DNA of 64,000 bases, from the NCBI GenBank assembly GCA_021371795.1, contig JAJFVK010000004.1, positions 62,001 through 126,000 of the forward strand, given 5' to 3'. Under the pieces are notes generated by a model that was not told where the DNA came from, did no database searches, and saw only the letters and a program-made list of their open reading frames with translations. This document shows positions 32,535 through 61,572 of the stretch, one piece after another (within the stretch, counting starts at the first letter, position 1; the number at the start of each line of letters is the position of its first letter). The DNA is from Planctomycetaceae bacterium (GTDB lineage Bacteria > Planctomycetota > Phycisphaerae > Sedimentisphaerales > UBA12454). The position numbers and the translations under genes were made by a program.

Positions 32535-32606
32535 GCTGAAGCGAAGCGAAAGCCCCTGAATCTTCAGATTTTTTCCATCCTTGTAAGGGACAAAACAGAA
32601 GGGGTA
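32535..32606 (-). repeat. hairpin element H, copy 1 (divergent)
   Basis: Read on the minus strand: ACCCCTTCTG, a diverged inner hairpin, CTGAAGATTCAGGGG, then CTTTCGCTTCGCTTCAGC. The ends match the other copies; the inner loop (TTACAAGGA) is diverged. Confidence 0.65.
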
Positions 32607-32659: not shown

Positions 32660-32737
32660 TAGTGTTAATTCGTGGTTATTCGTGGTTAAAAAAATAAAAC
32701 AAAAACCTCTGTGTTCTCTGTGAGCTCTGTGGCCAAG
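32660..32737. repeat. GTGGTTA and CTCTGTG repeats
   Basis: TTCGTGGTTATTCGTGGTTA followed by CTCTGTGTTCTCTGTGAGC, the inverted form of the CACAGAG repeats at 51614. Confidence 0.6.
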
Positions 32738-44611: not shown

Positions 44612-44712
44612 AAAAAATCTCTATGATCTCTGCTGAAGCGAAGCGAAAGCCCCTGAATCTTCAGGATTTTGTTGCCTCGAAAATAAAATCAGAAGGGGTG
44701 AACTCTGTGGCT
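44612..44712 (-). repeat. composite repeat: CACAGAG unit filled by hairpin element H, copy 2
   Basis: Read on the minus strand: TTAGCCACAGAGTTCAC, then element H (44632-44699: CCCTTCTG, GATTTTATT-ttcgaggc-AACAAAATC, CTGAAGATTCAGGGG, CTTTCGCTTCGCTTCAGC), then AGAGATCATAGAGA. The outer parts equal the unfilled repeat at 51614. Confidence 0.8.
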
Positions 44713-44722
44713 AACATAAAAA

Positions 44723-46399
44723 ATGAGAAAAATTGAAAATCCTGTTTTGTCGCAACTCTTTATGGAGACGAGTTTTGTGCCGCGTGCCCAGCAGATAAAA
44801 CAGCTCGCTGCCGCTGAATCGCTCTATAAAATTCTTTCCCCGGAACAGGAATATCCTTACGAATTTATCTGTTTCAAAATCACAGGCTACCGGCCGAAAA
44901 ATTCCGCCTCTACGGTTCCAATTTCCGGCGGCGAATTATTAAAAAGCCTGCCGAAATACATTCATAAAGCAAGTGCCCGACTGCGGTTGCGCACTGACCA
45001 GGAAAGCGAAAAAATCTACACCCTCAAGGAATTGGCCGAGCATTTGAACGTTTCAATCAGAACGCTCGAACGCTGGCAGACCAAAGGTTTGATTGGCCGA
45101 AGGTATGTTTTTCCGGACAATGTTTTGAAAACGGGTTTTTCGCAAACCTTTGTGGATGAATTTGTTACGGCAAATAAATCGCTTGTTGAGTCAGCCGCCA
45201 GTTACAGTACGATTGATTTAAAACTCAAAGGCGAGATATTGAAATATGTCGCGCAACTGTCGGGTCAGCAGGAGCTTAGCAAGACTGCGATAATGAAAAA
45301 AGCCGCCGAGCAGTTTGGACGGGCAGTTGAAACGGTTCGGCTGTTGGTTGTTGAGTATGAAAAGCGTCAGAAGAAACCGATATTTTTAAACCGCCGAACG
45401 CAAATTGAGTCGGCCGATGCGGCGGAAATTTTCAAGCTGTATCAGGCGGGCGAAAACGTGGAAAAAATTGCCGCAAAGTACTGCCACAGCAGCAGTTCCA
45501 TTTATCGTGTTATTACGCAAAGACGGGTGCGGAAACTGCTTGGCACAAAGATAGATTACATTCCGAGCGATGAATTTGTGCAGGCGGACGCGGAGGAAAA
45601 AATCCTTTCTGATTTGCCGTCGATTCGCCGAACGCCGAGGAAAATTTTGCAGAATGCTTCGGCTAAAATCAGCCACAATGATTGGCAGCGGTTTATTGAG
45701 GCGGTAACGAAGATTCCTATGCTCAATCGTGAGCAGGAGTTACAACTTTTTCGGCGGTATAATTTTTTGAAGTATCTGGCGGCGGAAAAGATGAAAGGAA
45801 TAAACTTACATAGTTTTTGCGGCAAGGCGGCGTACCAGGCACAGGAATTTTTGGATGAGGCGAACCGGCTGAAGAATCTGATTATCGAAGCGAATTTGAA
45901 ACTTGTTGTTCGCATTGCCGGTCGGCACAGCGGTGCGAATTTGGGCGATTTGGTAAGCGAAGGCAATATCGCGATGATGCGTGCGGTTGAGAAATTCGAT
46001 TACACAAAAGGTTTCCGGTTCAGCACTTACGCATCGTGGGTTATCAGCAGGGCGTTCGCAAGATATTTGCCCGCCGAGCAGGCGATGATGGGGGCGGAAC
46101 TGCCGGAAGAGGAATTTCAAATCGCGGCTGTTGAAAACGCCGGCAGCGATGATATTGATAATGCGCATCGGAGTTTGATGCAGGCGATTGAACAGAATTT
46201 GAACGAGCGTGAGCAGCACGTAATTCGTTATCACTTCGGGCTTTCCGGCACGATGGTGAAAAAAGAATTTAAAACTTTGAAGCAAATCGGCGAGGATTTA
46301 AAAATTACAAAAGAGCGCGTCCGCCAAATTGAACTTGAGGCGCTAAGCAAATTGCGCCAAACTTTAAGCCCGGAAGAGTTTGAGCTTTTGACACGATAA
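44723..46399 (+). CDS. sigma-70 factor with three N-terminal HTH domains
   Basis: A 558-residue factor. The sigma part has region 1.2 near 332-352, region 2 at 388-450 (NLKLVVRIAGRHSGANLGDL, GFRFSTYASWVISRA) and region 4 at 490-547 (LNEREQHVIRYHFGL, TKERVRQIELEALSKLR). Region 3 is missing or very short. Ahead of it lie three putative DNA-binding units: a MerR/excisionase-like HTH (98-125, YTLKELAEHLNVSIRTLERW), a helical HTH-like segment (170-215) and a Hin/resolvase-like HTH (228-272, EKIAAKYCHSSSSIYRVITQ). No good ribosome site precedes ATG 44723; an in-frame stop lies two codons upstream. Targets unknown. Confidence 0.85.
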   Translation: MRKIENPVLSQLFMETSFVPRAQQIKQLAAAESLYKILSPEQEYPYEFICFKITGYRPKNSASTVPISGGELLKSLPKYIHKASARLRLRTDQESEKIYTLKELAEHLNVSIRTLERWQTKGLIGRRYVFPDNVLKTGFSQTFVDEFVTANKSLVESAASYSTIDLKLKGEILKYVAQLSGQQELSKTAIMKKAAEQFGRAVETVRLLVVEYEKRQKKPIFLNRRTQIESADAAEIFKLYQAGENVEKIAAKYCHSSSSIYRVITQRRVRKLLGTKIDYIPSDEFVQADAEEKILSDLPSIRRTPRKILQNASAKISHNDWQRFIEAVTKIPMLNREQELQLFRRYNFLKYLAAEKMKGINLHSFCGKAAYQAQEFLDEANRLKNLIIEANLKLVVRIAGRHSGANLGDLVSEGNIAMMRAVEKFDYTKGFRFSTYASWVISRAFARYLPAEQAMMGAELPEEEFQIAAVENAGSDDIDNAHRSLMQAIEQNLNEREQHVIRYHFGLSGTMVKKEFKTLKQIGEDLKITKERVRQIELEALSKLRQTLSPEEFELLTR

Positions 46400-49601: not shown

Positions 49602-51617
49602 ATGAGCAGGAAAATTGTTGTTACTTCAGCGCTGCCTTATGCCAACGGGCCGATTCATATTGGGCACCTTGTTGAATATTTGCAGACGGATATCTGGGTG
49701 CGGTTTCAAAAAGAGAATGGGAATAAATGCCTTTACTTCTGCGCGGACGACACACACGGCACGCCGATAATGATTAGCGCACGCAAAGAAGGCATTGCGC
49801 CGGAGGAAATGATAAAAAGAATTTACGCCGAACACACACGCGACTTTGCGGGTTTTCATATTCAGTTCGATAATTATTATTCAACACATTCTGACGAGAA
49901 CAAACAGCTAAGCGCAGGAATATTTCAAAAGCTGTCTGAAAAAGGTTCGATTGTCAAAGGTGAAATTGAGCAGGCGTATTGCGAAAAGTGCAGTATGTTT
50001 TTGCCGGACAGATTCATTCGCGGTACATGTCCGAAATGCAAATCTGAAAATCAATACGGCGATTCGTGCGATAGCTGCGGAGCGACATATCAGCCGACAG
50101 ACTTGATTAATCCCGTCTGTTCGCAGTGCGGAACGAAACCGGTTATAAGAAAAAGCGTTCATTATTTCTTCAGGCTGGCGGATTATCAGAAGCAGCTTAA
50201 AGATTTAATGGCCGCCGGTTATACAGGCAAAAGCGTCGCAAACAAGCTCGATGAGTGGTTTTCGGCGGGTTTGAAAGATTGGGATATTTCACGCGACGGG
50301 CCGTATTTCGGTTTTAAAATTCCGGGCGAAGAAAATAAATTTTTCTACGTCTGGCTCGATGCGCCGATTGGTTATATGGCAAGCTGCAAAAATTACTGTA
50401 GTAAAAACGGTCTCGATTTCAACGAAGTATGGAATGGCAAAGACTGGGAGCTTTATCACTTCATCGGTAAAGACATTATGTATTTTCACGCGCTGTTCTG
50501 GCCGGCGATGCTGATGGGCAGCGGTTTCAAAGTTGCTAACAGGCTTTTCGTTCACGGATTCCTGACGGTCAACGGCGTAAAGATGAGCAAATCGAAAGGC
50601 ACGTTTATTAAGGCCGCTACTTACGCAAAACATCTTGACCCTGAATATCTGCGATACTATTACGCGAGTAAATTGACCGACGGCGTTGACGACATTGATT
50701 TGAATCTTGAGGATTTTGTCGCGAAGGTAAATTCCGACCTTGTTGGGAAACTGGCCAATCTTGCGAGCAGGTCTGTTCCGATGCTTGGTAAAATCGACGG
50801 AATGCTCGGCAGTGTTGACGCGACCGGCAAAGAATTAATTAATCAGCTTGTCACGGCAAAGCAGCAGATTATTGACTGCTATGAAAAATTAGATTACGCT
50901 TCGGTTATCAGACAAATCACGGCACTTGCCGATATCGCGAATAGATATGTCGAAGTAAATCAGCCGTGGGCGACGCTAAAGACAGACGCTGAAAAGACGC
51001 GCACAACGCTGACTGTGATTTTGAACGCAGTGAAAGTTTTGGCGATTTATCTCAAGCCTGTGCTGCCGGTGTTTGTTGAAAAGATTGAAAAAATTCTCGG
51101 CATTGAGGCGATGACGTTCGCTGATGTCGAGACATTGTTGGAAAATAAAAAGATTAACGAATACATCAGACTCGCAGAACGAGTCGAGAAACAGAAAGTT
51201 GACGCTATGATAGAAGAAAGCAAAAACGAGTCAGTACAGCAACCTGCTGCGCCTGCGGTTCCGGTAACAACTCTTGATGAACCATTGGAAGCGGAATGCA
51301 CGATTGACGATTTCAAGAAAATCGATTTGCGTGTAGCGAAAGTTGTCAAAGCAGAAAAGGTCGAAGGCGCGGATAAACTGCTGCATTTAGAACTTGATAT
51401 CGGCGGCATAACAAAAAATGTTTTCGCGGGTATCTCGAAGGCTTATGAGCCGGAAAAACTTGTCGGCAGATTAGTAATTTGCGTTGCGAATTTGCAGCCT
51501 CGCAAAATGAAGTTCGGCGTTTCCGAAGGTATGGTTTGTGCGGCAGGGCCGGGTGGCGCTGAAGTGTTTATGCTCGGCGTTGACAGCGGTGCAAAATCCG
51601 GACAGAGAGTCCATTAG
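49602..51617 (+). CDS. metG: methionyl-tRNA synthetase
   Basis: A 671-residue class I synthetase. HIGH lies in [15 protein letters not shown] (13-27), the zinc knuckles in [20 protein letters not shown] and CDSCGATYQ...CSQCG (four-Cys doubled type), and KMSKS in [11 protein letters not shown]. The anticodon domain follows, and the C-terminal 100 residues are an EMAP-II-like tRNA-binding domain ([20 protein letters not shown]). It starts directly after the ricT stop. Confidence 0.96.
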
Positions 51618-51690
51618 CCACAGAGCTCACAGAGACCACAGAGGTATTACTTTTTGGCCACAGAGAACACAGAGTTCACAGAGGTAAAAT
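51614..51690. repeat. TTAGCCACAGAG repeat pair, unfilled
   Basis: TTAGCCACAGAGCTCAC-AGAGACCACAGAGG and a second GGCCACAGAGAACACAGAG unit. This equals the outer parts of the filled copies at 60301 and 44612 without the hairpin element. Confidence 0.75.
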
Positions 51691-51694
51691 TGGC

Positions 51695-52060
51695 ATGAGT
51701 GATGAACTGACAGCAAAAATAATTGGTGCTGCAATTGAAGTGCACGAAATACTTGGGCCGGGATTGCTCGAATCCATTTATGAAGAAGCTTTGTGTCATG
51801 AGTTTACTCTGAATAACATCAAATTTCAACGGCAAGTTGATTGTGATATCGTCTATAAAGAGAAAACGATAAAAGGACAGAAACTTGATTTACTTGTTGA
51901 AAATGAAGTAGTGATAGAATTAAAATCTTTGTCAAAAATGCCGGAAGTTGCATTGGCTCAAACACTTTCTTATCTAAAAGCCACAAACTTGAAACGAGGC
52001 CTGATAATCAACTTTGGCGAAAAAAGATTAGTCAATGGAATTAAAAGGGTTTCTTTATGA
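51695..52060 (+). CDS. GxxExxY protein (PD-(D/E)XK fold)
   Basis: A 121-residue protein of the GxxExxY family: GPGLLESIYEEAL (30-42) holds the name-giving motif, LDLLVENEVVIELKSL is the D...ExK nuclease-like core, and the GLIINFGEKRL strand ends it. The fold suggests nuclease ancestry; the role is unknown. Its ribosome site (AGAGG) is supplied by the CACAGAGG repeat before it, and the next repeat follows the stop. Confidence 0.88.
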   Translation: MSDELTAKIIGAAIEVHEILGPGLLESIYEEALCHEFTLNNIKFQRQVDCDIVYKEKTIKGQKLDLLVENEVVIELKSLSKMPEVALAQTLSYLKATNLKRGLIINFGEKRLVNGIKRVSL

Positions 52061-52082
52061 TAGCCACCGAGACTAAAACTTT

Positions 52083-52118
52083 TTTAGCCACAGAGCTCAC
52101 AGAGAACACAGAGAGAAA
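52083..52118. repeat. TTAGCCACAGAG repeat
   Basis: TTAGCCACAGAGCTCACAGA then GAACACAGAGAGA, ending three bases before the next gene and providing a GAGAG ribosome site. Confidence 0.7.
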
Positions 52119-52120
52119 AA

Positions 52121-52930
52121 ATGGAATTGCGAAATGATCTAAAAATAAGTTATATTGAAGCAATTGAACAACATCGGCGATGGCTTCAGCATTTTGATAA
52201 ACAACGTTTGGGAAAATGGGAGAATTTGCTCAACGCCGATCCAGAAGCAGCTATTTGCGAAGCAGAGACTGTAGAGCTTCTGCTAAATTACGATGTTGAA
52301 GTGCAACCTTATGAAAATTTATCTAAGGGTGGCCCAGATTTTCTTTGTACGAAAAAAGGCAGAAATTTTTATGTTGAAGTTACTTGTATAACAATAGATA
52401 TCGCAACTAAAAAGAGTGCTTTACCCCCGTCATATCCTGCACAGCCCAGTCCTCAATATTATAGGTTTTTAACTAACCATATTCTTGGTGAACTCTGTAA
52501 TAAAACACGGCAGTGTTCTGAATTAGGACAACCATGTATAATTGCAATAGCAACTTTGCATCATAGAGCTGGAGCGTGTTGTTTTAGAAAATCTGCATGC
52601 GAGGATATTTTGACGGGGACTTCTCAAGCAACAGTGGATATCAATGTTAAAGAAGGCCGTGCGGAAGGCGAACCATATTTAACTACGGAACTGCGAGATT
52701 CGGCATTTATTCGTTTCGCAAAGACAGCAGATGGAACTATAGAATATGCTCGTAATCCTATTTCGGCATTATTACTATGTGCTTTTGGTCAGTATCCTAT
52801 TATGGTAAATGGGGTACTTCATCCTAATTCAAATTATCCATTTGATAGAGAAATGCTTCTTGGAATAGAATTTTGCATGTTAGAATCTGGTTGCGAAAAA
52901 AACAGGCATTTAAAAGTTAAATGGATTTAA
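52121..52930 (+). CDS. putative PD-(D/E)XK nuclease-like protein
   Basis: A 269-residue protein without a recognised family. GGPDFLCTKKGRNFYVEVTC (about 69-88) fits a PD-x(n)-ExT variant of the PD-(D/E)XK core, preceded by a helix with Glu (CEAETVELLLNY). The remainder is unfamiliar. Codon and base use look more A/T rich than the metG operon. CACAGAG repeats lie on both sides, so it may be an accessory cassette. A restriction-like or repair nuclease is possible but not shown. Confidence 0.5.
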   Translation: MELRNDLKISYIEAIEQHRRWLQHFDKQRLGKWENLLNADPEAAICEAETVELLLNYDVEVQPYENLSKGGPDFLCTKKGRNFYVEVTCITIDIATKKSALPPSYPAQPSPQYYRFLTNHILGELCNKTRQCSELGQPCIIAIATLHHRAGACCFRKSACEDILTGTSQATVDINVKEGRAEGEPYLTTELRDSAFIRFAKTADGTIEYARNPISALLLCAFGQYPIMVNGVLHPNSNYPFDREMLLGIEFCMLESGCEKNRHLKVKWI

Positions 52931-52961
52931 AACATATATATAATAATATAATAAATAAAAT

Positions 52962-53018
52962 CTCTGTGGTCTCTGTGTTCTCTGTGGCTAAAAATAAAAG
53001 TTAAAAACTCTGTGGCAG
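52962..53018. repeat. CTCTGTG repeat, inverted
   Basis: CTCTGTGGTCTCTGTGTTCT then CTCTGTGGCTAA and a second CTCTGTGG, the inverse of the 52083 repeat. Confidence 0.7.
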
Positions 53019-53025
53019 GAAAGAT

Positions 53026-53409: not shown

Positions 53410-53479
53410 GCCCCCTCTGATTTTTGCTTTCAAGGTTGCAAAAATCCTGAAAATTCGGGGGTCTCCGCTTTGCTCCGAC
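53410..53479 (+). repeat. hairpin element H, copy 3
   Basis: CCCCCTCTG, inner hairpin GATTTTTGC-tttcaaggtt-GCAAAAATC, CTGAAAATTCGGGGG, TCTCCGCTTTGCTCC. The stem bases differ from other copies but still pair. Confidence 0.75.
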
Positions 53480-53490
53480 CACCAAGACAT

Positions 53491-53540
53491 CCCCTCTAAT
53501 TTTTCTTTTCAAGGTAGAAAAATTCAGAAGAATCGGGGAC
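53491..53540 (+). repeat. hairpin element H, copy 4
   Basis: CCCCTCT, inner hairpin AATTTTTCT-tttcaaggt-AGAAAAATT, CAGAAGAATCGGGG; the CTTCGCTTC tail is lost. Confidence 0.65.
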
Positions 53541-53600
53541 TACGCAAAAGGCACGAATAGTTTTTAGTCTTTAATTCATAATTTAAATTTGCGAAACGTT

Positions 53601-59473: not shown

Positions 59474-60265
59474 TTATGACAGAGCTGCTTTTACCTCTTT
59501 GATAAATTTCATAACTTCTTTTGCGATAACGGCTTTATCGCTCAAATTGTCTTCGATAATTTTTACGATTCTTGAGCCGATAATTACGCCGTCAGCGCCG
59601 GCTTTTGCCAACTCAACTGCGTGCTGCGGTGTGCTTACGCCAAAACCCACGCAAACCGGCACATCAGTAATAGATTTTAATCTGCTAATCAACGGCTTAA
59701 TCATGTCTGATAATGTATCTCTGCCGCCGGTAACGCCGAGCAGCGAAACGGTGTAAATAAAGCCCGTGCATTTTTCAGCGATTTTTTTCGCGCGTTCGAT
59801 TTCAGTATTTGGTGTTACCATGAAAACCGTATCGAGTCCCGCTTTGCGAGAAGGTTCATAAATTTCATCAACATCGTCAATACTCAAATCTGCAATCAGC
59901 ACACTGTTTGTTCCGGCTTTCGCGAAATCGGCGAAAAACTTTTCTGTGCCGTATTGGAAAATCAAATTGTAGTACATCAGCAAACCAATCGGAATATCCT
60001 TGTACGCTTTTACCTTCGCGATGAACTCTTTTGCTCTTTCGACTGTAATGCCGGCGGATAGTGCGCGAATGTTCGCTTTCTGGATTGTCGGGCCGTCGGC
60101 AATTGGGTCTGAAAACGCGATGCCAAGCTCAAGCACATCTGCACCTGCGTCAATGGCCGCTTTTACAATTTCCAAACTTGTATCAAAATCCGGATCACCA
60201 ATAACAAAAAATGGTATCAAGGCCGGATGTTTTAATTCAGTAAAAACCTGTTTGTACGTTCTCAT
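59474..60265 (-). CDS. trpA: tryptophan synthase alpha subunit
   Basis: A 263-residue TIM barrel that cleaves indole-3-glycerol phosphate to indole. Catalytic Glu is in LELGIAFSDPIADGPTIQ (near 46) and Asp in LIADLSIDD (near 57-60 of the family site); the YTVSLLGVTGGR loop 6 and VGFGVSTPQHA phosphate site are present. AAGGA before ATG 60265. It is the last gene of the trp operon, parted from trpB by a 135-base repeat region. Confidence 0.95.
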   Translation of the reverse strand: MRTYKQVFTELKHPALIPFFVIGDPDFDTSLEIVKAAIDAGADVLELGIAFSDPIADGPTIQKANIRALSAGITVERAKEFIAKVKAYKDIPIGLLMYYNLIFQYGTEKFFADFAKAGTNSVLIADLSIDDVDEIYEPSRKAGLDTVFMVTPNTEIERAKKIAEKCTGFIYTVSLLGVTGGRDTLSDMIKPLISRLKSITDVPVCVGFGVSTPQHAVELAKAGADGVIIGSRIVKIIEDNLSDKAVIAKEVMKFIKEVKAALS

Positions 60266-60300: not shown

Positions 60301-60398
60301 TTAGCCACAAAGCTCACCCCTTCTGATTTTGTTTTCAAGGTAACAAAATCCTGAAGATACAGGGGCTTCCGCTCCGCTTCAGCAGAGACCACAGAGAA
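60301..60398 (+). repeat. composite repeat: CACAGAG unit filled by hairpin element H, copy 5
   Basis: TTAGCCACAAAGCTCAC, element H (60316-60383: CCCCTTCTG, GATTTTGTT-ttcaaggt-AACAAAATC, CTGAAGATACAGGGG, CTTCCGCTCCGCTTCAGC), then AGAGACCACAGAGA. It lies between trpB and trpA and is oriented against the operon. Confidence 0.8.
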
Positions 60399-60399
60399 T

Positions 60400-61572
60400 T
60401 TATTTAATTTTATTTCTTTCTACTATGTCAACGTCTTTGTCGCCGCGACCGGAAAGATTTACGACGACAGTTGTGTCTTTCGGCAGTTTGCCTTTCTGAT
60501 TATAAACCCACGCTAATGAATGTGAGCTTTCTAATGCCGGCAAAATTCCTTCACACTTTGTGAAAATATCAAAAATTTTCAAAACATCTTCATCTTTCAT
60601 AGCGACATAATTTGCTCTGCCGGTATCTTTCAAGTAACAATGTTCGGGACCTACGCCGGGGTAATCCAATCCCGCGGAAACCGATTCGGTGTCGAGAATC
60701 TGGCCTTCCTTGTTTTGCATCAGATACATTTTCGTTCCGTGCAGAATGCCGACATTGCCTGCGTTGAGCGGTGCGGCGTGTTTGCCGGTTTCGATGCCTT
60801 TGCCTGCGGGTTCGACGCCGACGAGTTTTACTTTTTTATCTTCAAGAAACGCGCTGAAGATTCCAATCGCATTGCTTCCGCCGCCGACACATGCGGTAAC
60901 GATATCCGGCAGTTTGCCGATTTTCTCAAGGCACTGCTGACGCGATTCTGTTCCGATGCACGACTGAAAATGTCTGACAATGACCGGATACGGATGCGGC
61001 CCGCAGGCTGTTCCGAACAGGTAAAATGTATCAGCAACGTTCGCTGTCCAGTAGCGGAGCGCTTCGTTGATTGCGTCTTTTAAAGTTTCCGTGCCGCCTT
61101 TGACGGAGATGACTTCCGCGCCGCAGAGTCTCATCTTGTGTACGTTTACGCTTTGGCGTTCAATATCAATCGCGCCCATAAAAATTTTTGTATTCATTCC
61201 GAACAGTGCGCCAATCATTGATGTCGCAAGACCGTGCTGGCCTGCTCCTGTTTCGGCAATCAGTTTTGTCTTGCCCATATATTTGGCGAGCAAGCCCTGA
61301 CCGAGACAGTTATTGACTTTGTGTGCGCCACCGTGCAGCAGGTCTTCACGTTTGATGTAAACCTTGAAGCCGACAAGCTCACTGAACCGCGTCGCGTAAT
61401 AAAGCGGCGTCGGCCTGCCTGCGTAATCCTTATATAATGTGTCAAGCTCTTTGACGAATTTTTCATTTTTGTAAAATTTATAAAAGGCCGTTTCCATTTC
61501 CTCAAGTGCGGGTATCAAAACTTCAGGAACGTAAAAACCGCCGAATTGCCCGAATCGTCCGTTTTGTTTCAT
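60400..61572 (-). CDS. trpB: tryptophan synthase beta subunit
   Basis: A 390-residue PLP enzyme that joins indole and serine. The Schiff-base Lys is in [12 protein letters not shown] (near 87), the catalytic Glu in [10 protein letters not shown], the phosphate loop in [10 protein letters not shown] and the C-terminal Ser in [11 protein letters not shown]. TrpB1 type, about the usual 395 residues. Its ATG overlaps the stop of trpF by four bases. Confidence 0.96.

Follow-up and report, generated by a model that had tools for sequence, protein, structure and literature searches.

A short DNA hairpin at a fixed base step of CACNNAG tandem arrays in a planctomycete genus: a probable case of mobile DNA

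Introduction

How does a hairpin of 66 bp come to lie at the same step of a short tandem repeat at separate places in a bacterial genome, while other copies of the repeat in the same stretch stand empty? Many bacterial genomes contain small palindromic repeats, and the case for their mobility usually rests on copy number only. The window analysed here, a stretch of 64,000 nucleotides from a draft planctomycete genome (G000; its congeners are labelled G001, G002 and so on), was the subject of an earlier note made from the letters alone. It described filled repeats at 60301 and 44612-44712 beside an unfilled one at 51614, all quoted correctly as re-reading confirmed, and proposed either site-specific insertion of the element, called H, or spread of a composite. 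Several questions follow. Does H insert into arrays, or do arrays and H travel together? Does its fold serve as DNA or as RNA? Which enzyme might move it? We lean towards reading H as a non-autonomous, single-strand (IS200/IS605/REP-like) mobile DNA hairpin, and we are fairly confident that H itself inserts into existing arrays.

The arrays and the element

The usual form of the repeat is a three-unit array, TTTTTAGC CACAGAG nn CACAGAG nn CACAGAG, often with one extra GCCACAGAG about 20 bp upstream. The window holds 17 CACAGAGnnCACAGAG-like sites against 1.57 expected, a count reached by none of 100 shuffles. Genome-wide there are 91 matches to CACAGAGnnCACAGAG (83 exact and 8 with one mismatch), 37 of them exact three-unit arrays, and a reversed-pattern control gave 0. 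Beyond the window, the genome was read in the stretches surrounding matches. Across the phylum sample, three-unit CACAGAG arrays occur very patchily (e.g., in G228, G239 and G062), in 42 of 294 genomes with up to 124 matches per genome; sometimes they form extended tandem arrays, or inverted pairs separated by about 100-200 bp. A search of 14 array-rich genomes outside the genus for a gap of mini-hairpin size found no mini-hairpin-filled arrays, just longer tandem arrays. In G001 (L238, G001:C128:10700-11900), a CACTAAG-type array with an inverted partner, together palindromic, stands where G000 has a CACAGAG array.

In both window arrays first noted, H consists of a 49-nt hairpin followed by a 17-nt tail, for example CTTTCGCTTCGCTTCAG (Table 1). 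The hairpin is made up of a 5-bp outer stem, an internal loop, an inner stem of about 9 bp and the loop TTTTCAAGG. The two copies are 91% identical across 68 bp, and the earlier note had taken H as the 68 bases between TTCAC and AGAGAT. The junctions are indeed the same at both places, but the extent needed correction: copies that start with T (L005, L006, L008) place the break at CA^C, so that the insert is 66 bp and the C before AGAG belongs to the target DNA.

A covariance model built from 15 copies of H revealed three further copies in the window (Table 1) and 58 in this genome (E ≤ 0.1). At E ≤ 0.01 it found 53 copies in G001, 26 in G004, 5 in G002 and 0 or 1 in the other relatives, with two weak matches in the wider family and order. 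In a class sample of 198 genomes searched at E 1e-5, H was found in this genome only, the three genus members of that sample including G003 and G006 and not the H-rich congeners. Among GTDB contigs, only those of Planctomycetes bacterium GWF2_41_51 and GWF2_42_9 show the exact junction pattern of array and H.

H also lies in the loops of REP-like hairpins (e.g., CCCTGCCATAG..TGGCAGGG and GCGTCGCCG..CGGCGAC-GGCTAAAC), where it carries a different short tail, and the same kinds of repeat can be seen nearby in empty form (L147, L151, L153). The loops of H in turn hold mini-hairpins (TCCCC-GCAA-GGGGATTGTAAG) at L003, L104 and L107, and TCCCC-nnnn-GGGGATTGTAAG mini-hairpins and their relatives occupy a loop or arm of H at these loci and at L111, L113, L116 and L119. 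Nesting of hairpins in hairpins, at several levels, is a general habit in these genomes. In G004 (L252, G004:C138), a quite different hairpin (ACCCCCACTTCTCGAGGGGCAGGCTCCGAT) lies in the array that carries H as L004 in G000.

Table 1. Copies of H, arrays and trp genes in the window
Feature	Position	Strand	Remarks
H	32535..32604	-	tail CT..AG
Empty 3-unit CACAGAG array	32707..32731	-	
Array, right part	44619..44632	-	CAGAGATCATAGAG
H, second copy	44633..44698	-	tail 44633-44649; in leader of sigma-factor-like gene 44723-46399
Array, left part	44699..44711	-	GCCACAGAGTTCA
Empty 3-unit CACAGAG array	51619..51643	+	
Empty 3-unit CACAGAG array	51659..51683	+	
Empty 3-unit CACAGAG array	52089..52113	+	
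Empty 3-unit CACAGAG array	52962..52986	-	
H	53411..53479	+	tail TC..GA; directly 5′ of CACCAAG array
H	53490..53545	+	degenerate tail; at CA^C of unit 2 inside CACCAAG array
trpA	59474..60265	-	own ATG; AAGGA upstream, inside the putative inserted block
Array, left part	60304..60316	+	GCCACAAAGCTCA; unit 1 and CA of unit 2
H, trpB-trpA copy	60317..60382	+	hairpin 60317-60365, tail 60366-60382 (CT-TCCGCTCCGCTTC-AG)
Array, right part	60383..60396	+	CAGAG of unit 2, and unit 3
trpB	60400..61572	-	

Junction and orientation

By flank rules, 28 copies of H in G000, G001 and G004 were classed as lying within CACNNAG arrays. Most of the array copies split the unit at CA^C, in unit 2 mostly in G000 and in unit 1 mostly in G001; an exception in register is L241 of G000, a mini-hairpin with a related tail at CCACCGA^GACC, and since the flank patterns that define the array class favour the CA^C register, the number of exceptions may be underestimated. 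The base to the left of H is A in 25 of the 26 tail-bearing array copies, and the base to its right is C in 60 of all 66 tail-bearing copies, including most of those outside arrays, so that the target may be described more generally as a step before C, most often A^C. Array and H point the same way in 27 cases and opposite ways in 0. The register is the same in CACAGAG, CACCAAG, CACTAAG and CACGAAG arrays (L063, L080 and L055 for the types other than CACAGAG). Thus, the proposal that H sits at one point of a CACAGAG repeat holds for the register and fails for the sequence: other units, both unit 1 and unit 2, other repeats and the loops of REP-like hairpins are occupied as well.

Filled and empty sites in congeners

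The coding flanks of 16 loci were searched across the genus, and the matching places were fetched and aligned. L008 is filled in G000 (GCCACAGAGAACA-H-CAGAGGCCACAGAG) and empty in G001 (L256; GCCACAGAGTTCACAGAGAACACAGAG), the empty ..TTCA^CAGAG.. corresponding to the filled ..AACA^TCCTC...CCAG^CAGAG..; G004 and G005 have no array at this place. At L005, G000 is filled in unit 2, and G001 (L247) has the same array empty with an adjoining second array filled in unit 1; there is no array in G004 and, in a stretch of G005 that reaches only slightly beyond the site, none was seen. L006 is filled in G000, an empty CACAGAG array in G005 (L239), a CACTAAG-type array in G001 and without an array in G004. 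L013, which in G000 is filled by a mini-hairpin with the same kind of tail, is empty in both G001 (L235) and G004 (L236), with no array in G005. L004 is filled in G000, is a degenerate array without an insert in G005 and has a different hairpin at the same place in G004. Relatives lack both array and H at L064, L092, L080 and L136.

Empty alleles in relatives, which the earlier note had considered worth looking for, therefore exist for several arrays filled in G000 (L008, L005, L006 and, with a mini-hairpin, L013), and its question about target duplication can also be answered: no target bases are duplicated at the filled/empty pairs. H may have been lost from relatives at single loci; L013 has two empty relatives. 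These orthologous comparisons are the decisive evidence for insertion of H. Classical MITEs, which are moved by a DDE transposase, have terminal inverted repeats at both ends and a target site duplication. H was rejected as such an element, because its filled/empty pairs show no duplication and its 5′ end is a stem and its 3′ end a different tail.

The two copies from which insertion was initially proposed tell another part of the story. One of them lies between trpB and trpA, as had been noted. In G001, G003, G004 and G006 the start of trpA overlaps or abuts the stop of trpB, with no repeat; the junction of the two genes has a few extra bases in G002 and about 80 bp of unrelated sequence in G005. 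At the 44.6-kb site, G004 has neither array nor H. Array and H therefore appear as one new block at both places, and since the relatives have no array there, these two copies do not demonstrate insertion into a pre-existing array. Site-specific insertion is supported by the CA^C register, the 27:0 orientation, the duplication-free junctions and the empty orthologues; the two window copies, offered in its support, do not prove it. With the block, trpA acquired a start codon (ATG) of its own, preceded by AAGGA.

Tail ends and type of target

Sixty-six copies have a CGCT-N-CGCT tail. Its first two bases after the hairpin and its last two are CT..AG in 30 copies, TT..AA in 16 and TC..GA in 14, and the end dinucleotides are fully complementary in 60 of the 66 (mean 24 and maximum 39 in 10,000 shuffles). 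Among array copies having one of these three main types, all 25 are CT..AG; outside arrays, 5 of 33 are (Fisher p = 8e-12), and one of these five (L086) actually adjoins an array. Non-array tails are mostly TT..AA or TC..GA, and a further array copy, L125, has TT..AG. The trend is alike in each of the three genomes and across several stem types: five or more stem types, besides a mini-hairpin, are found in arrays, all with the same tail type. A tree of the 50 usable core columns, with one or two supported pairs, is too poorly resolved to demonstrate repeated independent changes of tail and context. Because there are only three main haplotypes and the core tree is so poorly resolved, the relation between tail and target is to be read as an association and not as proof of a code. 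We regard it as improbable, though worth stating, that the dinucleotide pair is a two-letter target code, by which CT..AG would lead to CACNNAG arrays and TT..AA or TC..GA to other repeats, whatever the hairpin. A single-strand transposition system would then carry H as non-coding cargo, its guide lying across the hairpin from the position in IS200/IS605 and REPs and tandem arrays serving as dedicated landing sites.

Insertion or copying between arrays

The main rival explanation takes the constant junction as inheritance instead of target choice: H would have entered a few arrays once and spread from array to array by gene conversion or recombination, or array and H would move as a unit. The congeners without an array at trpB-trpA and at 44.6 kb speak for it, since they imply a block of array and H or two events in quick succession; so do the CT..AG tail of nearly all array copies and the preference for unit 2 in G000 and for unit 1 in G001, which founder effects would produce. 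However, the differing units (CACAGAG, CACCAAG, CACTAAG, CACGAAG) and spacers reach the junction on both sides, leaving few shared bases at the break, the various stem types and the mini-hairpin in arrays share one tail type, and outside arrays, too, the right-hand base of tail-bearing copies is mostly C. On balance, copying between arrays, conversion in particular, is the strongest of the alternatives and still an unlikely one, and insertion of H itself into existing arrays is preferred.

DNA or RNA

In an alignment of 107 copies, 96.8% of the pair cells are standard, a value biased upward because the alignment was fitted to the structure; two-sided Watson-Crick changes amount to 254 cells against 10 wobble cells, and this scarcity of wobble pairs is not explained by the fitting. 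Shuffled alignments gave 71 two-sided cells and a covariation score of 0.161 (observed, 0.463). In the initial alignment, which was built without the structure, there were 29 two-sided and 0 wobble cells. The near-absence of wobble pairs fits a structure that acts as DNA.

Could H instead be a transcribed RNA element, such as a terminator, an mRNA stabilizer or a regulatory hairpin, kept by selection at these sites? The hairpin between trpB and trpA and that in the leader of the sigma-factor-like gene would suit such a role. However, no Rfam model matched any of ten H loci at E up to 1, no T-run follows the hairpin on its 3′ side, wobble pairs are nearly absent, and the orthologous places in congeners lack H at the two window sites and at several others. 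We consider this explanation very improbable, and an RNA function was set aside because of the missing wobble pairs and the absence of H at orthologous sites.

A possible mechanism

The lack of duplication, the strand specificity, the short fixed target and the pairing of the ends lead us to liken the movement of H to that of IS200/IS605 and REP elements. H would insert as single-stranded DNA, strand-specifically and with no target duplication, at CA^C within CACNNAG units and also into other repeats. To mark the cut, the two bases at the hairpin foot would pair with the 3′-terminal dinucleotide of H, like the guide/cleavage pair of IS200/IS605 and REPs, and the reaction would be catalysed in trans by a Y1 (HUH) transposase. 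A single-strand, Y1-driven route is the most likely reading, although it is unproven, and Y1 as the enzyme class is a tentative suggestion by analogy.

RAYT-type Y1 genes, for which a search had been suggested, are present in six of the seven congeners, but no Y1 lineage follows H: none is common to the genomes rich in H and absent from those poor in it. For its 53 copies of H, G001 has a single weak Y1 gene (C102:18673); five Y1 genes occur in each of G005 and G006, which have no H, and G002 has H and no Y1 gene. The Y1 genes of G000 lie at C8:90063, C2:50274, C5:257, C6:86371, C19:67704 and C20:53745. Four Y1 genes (in G000, G001 and G004) have an H on one side at a distance of no more than about 800 bp, and none was seen with H on both sides; the presence of H in REP arrays around Y1 genes can explain these four. 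At L287 (G000:C19:66104-69591), dense GTTTAGC-tagged REP-like hairpins, one with H in its loop, surround a Y1 gene that encodes about 190 aa. A RAYT as the demonstrated mover was set aside, as Y1 counts do not follow H and the three H-rich genomes share no Y1 lineage. REP/RAYT systems are recognized by a GTAG or CGTC tag at the hairpin end and by a cognate Y1 gene flanked by the repeat. No such tag occurs in the aligned H copies or their flanks, and membership was rejected because both the tag and a tracking Y1 gene were looked for and not found.

Might H be an integron-type element, an attC-like folded site put between A and C by a tyrosine recombinase? The folded hairpin, the strand-specific insertion and the A/C break would agree with this. 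The defining core sites of attC are RYYYAAC and GTTRRRY, and these are absent from the conserved ends of H (..CAGC, ..CAAC, ..CGAC), which makes the explanation about as remote as an RNA role, if not slightly more so. Chance similarity or an assembly artefact, for which one might cite the draft state of the genome (28 contigs), is practically negligible given that H recurs in three genomes assembled separately, with strong covariation and with flanks that are unique and syntenic.

Relation to known hairpin elements

Mobile hairpins, insertions of REPs into palindromes and duplication-free hairpin elements are already known. In IS200/IS605, a guide sequence at the foot of the hairpin pairs with terminal bases, guide and terminus being tetranucleotides (PMC6006769). 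With this group and its palindromic derivatives H shares a hairpin at the end, strand-specific insertion in a single orientation, no target duplication, a short target with a fixed base step and, putatively, pairing between foot and end (PMC6006769). H differs in that its pair is a dinucleotide, its putative guide stands 3′ of the hairpin (the guide of IS200/IS605 and REPs stands 5′), it carries no gene, and no transposase could be assigned to it. Like REP/RAYT (TnpA-REP) repeats, H is a short imperfect hairpin with many intergenic copies, and Y1 genes exist in most congeners, but its foot has no GTAG/CGTC tag and its insertion in tandem arrays is sequence- and orientation-specific.

Parallels in placement, and a precedent for the nesting of hairpins, are GTAG-23 of T. 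roseum and GTAG-15 of A. variabilis, REPs inserted at a set place in another repeat family, with hundreds of free targets reported for GTAG-23 (PMC3733652). Their targets are palindromes; the units of CACNNAG arrays repeat directly, and no GTAG tag is present in H. The mitochondrial double-hairpin elements of Allomyces are free of flanking duplications and, together with the GC clusters of yeast mitochondria, are short hairpins that, like H, spread between close species (PMC2800124). Unlike H, these are mitochondrial, and a fixed register in tandem repeats is not among the features reported for them (PMC2800124). As far as the papers searched go, it is new that a hairpin targets tandem arrays at a fixed base step, that empty orthologous sites provide evidence for this, and that complementary tail ends go along with the type of target.

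Array-flanked genes between metG and a Minf_1886-family gene

Window positions 51617-53025 (1.4 kb, from metG to a Minf_1886-family gene) contain a GxxExxY (PDDEXK_3) gene and an ORF of 269 aa that matches no family, separated and bounded by CACAGAG arrays. The same interval measures only about 36-104 bp in G003, G004 and G005; in G002 it is about 1.08 kb long, its ORF is unrelated and its arrays are decayed. The interval resembles a hotspot for the integration of small array-flanked genes. A literature search on the repeat sequence or GxxExxY gave no relevant paper.

Concluding remarks

Orthologous sites with and without H, together with its single orientation and single base step, give it a defined target. 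At the trp locus, the block of array and H would mean that an operon was rebuilt by insertion, the trpB/trpA overlap of most congeners having given way to a spacer with its own ribosome-binding site. The three copy-rich genomes form a natural series for asking whether two bases of H choose its target.
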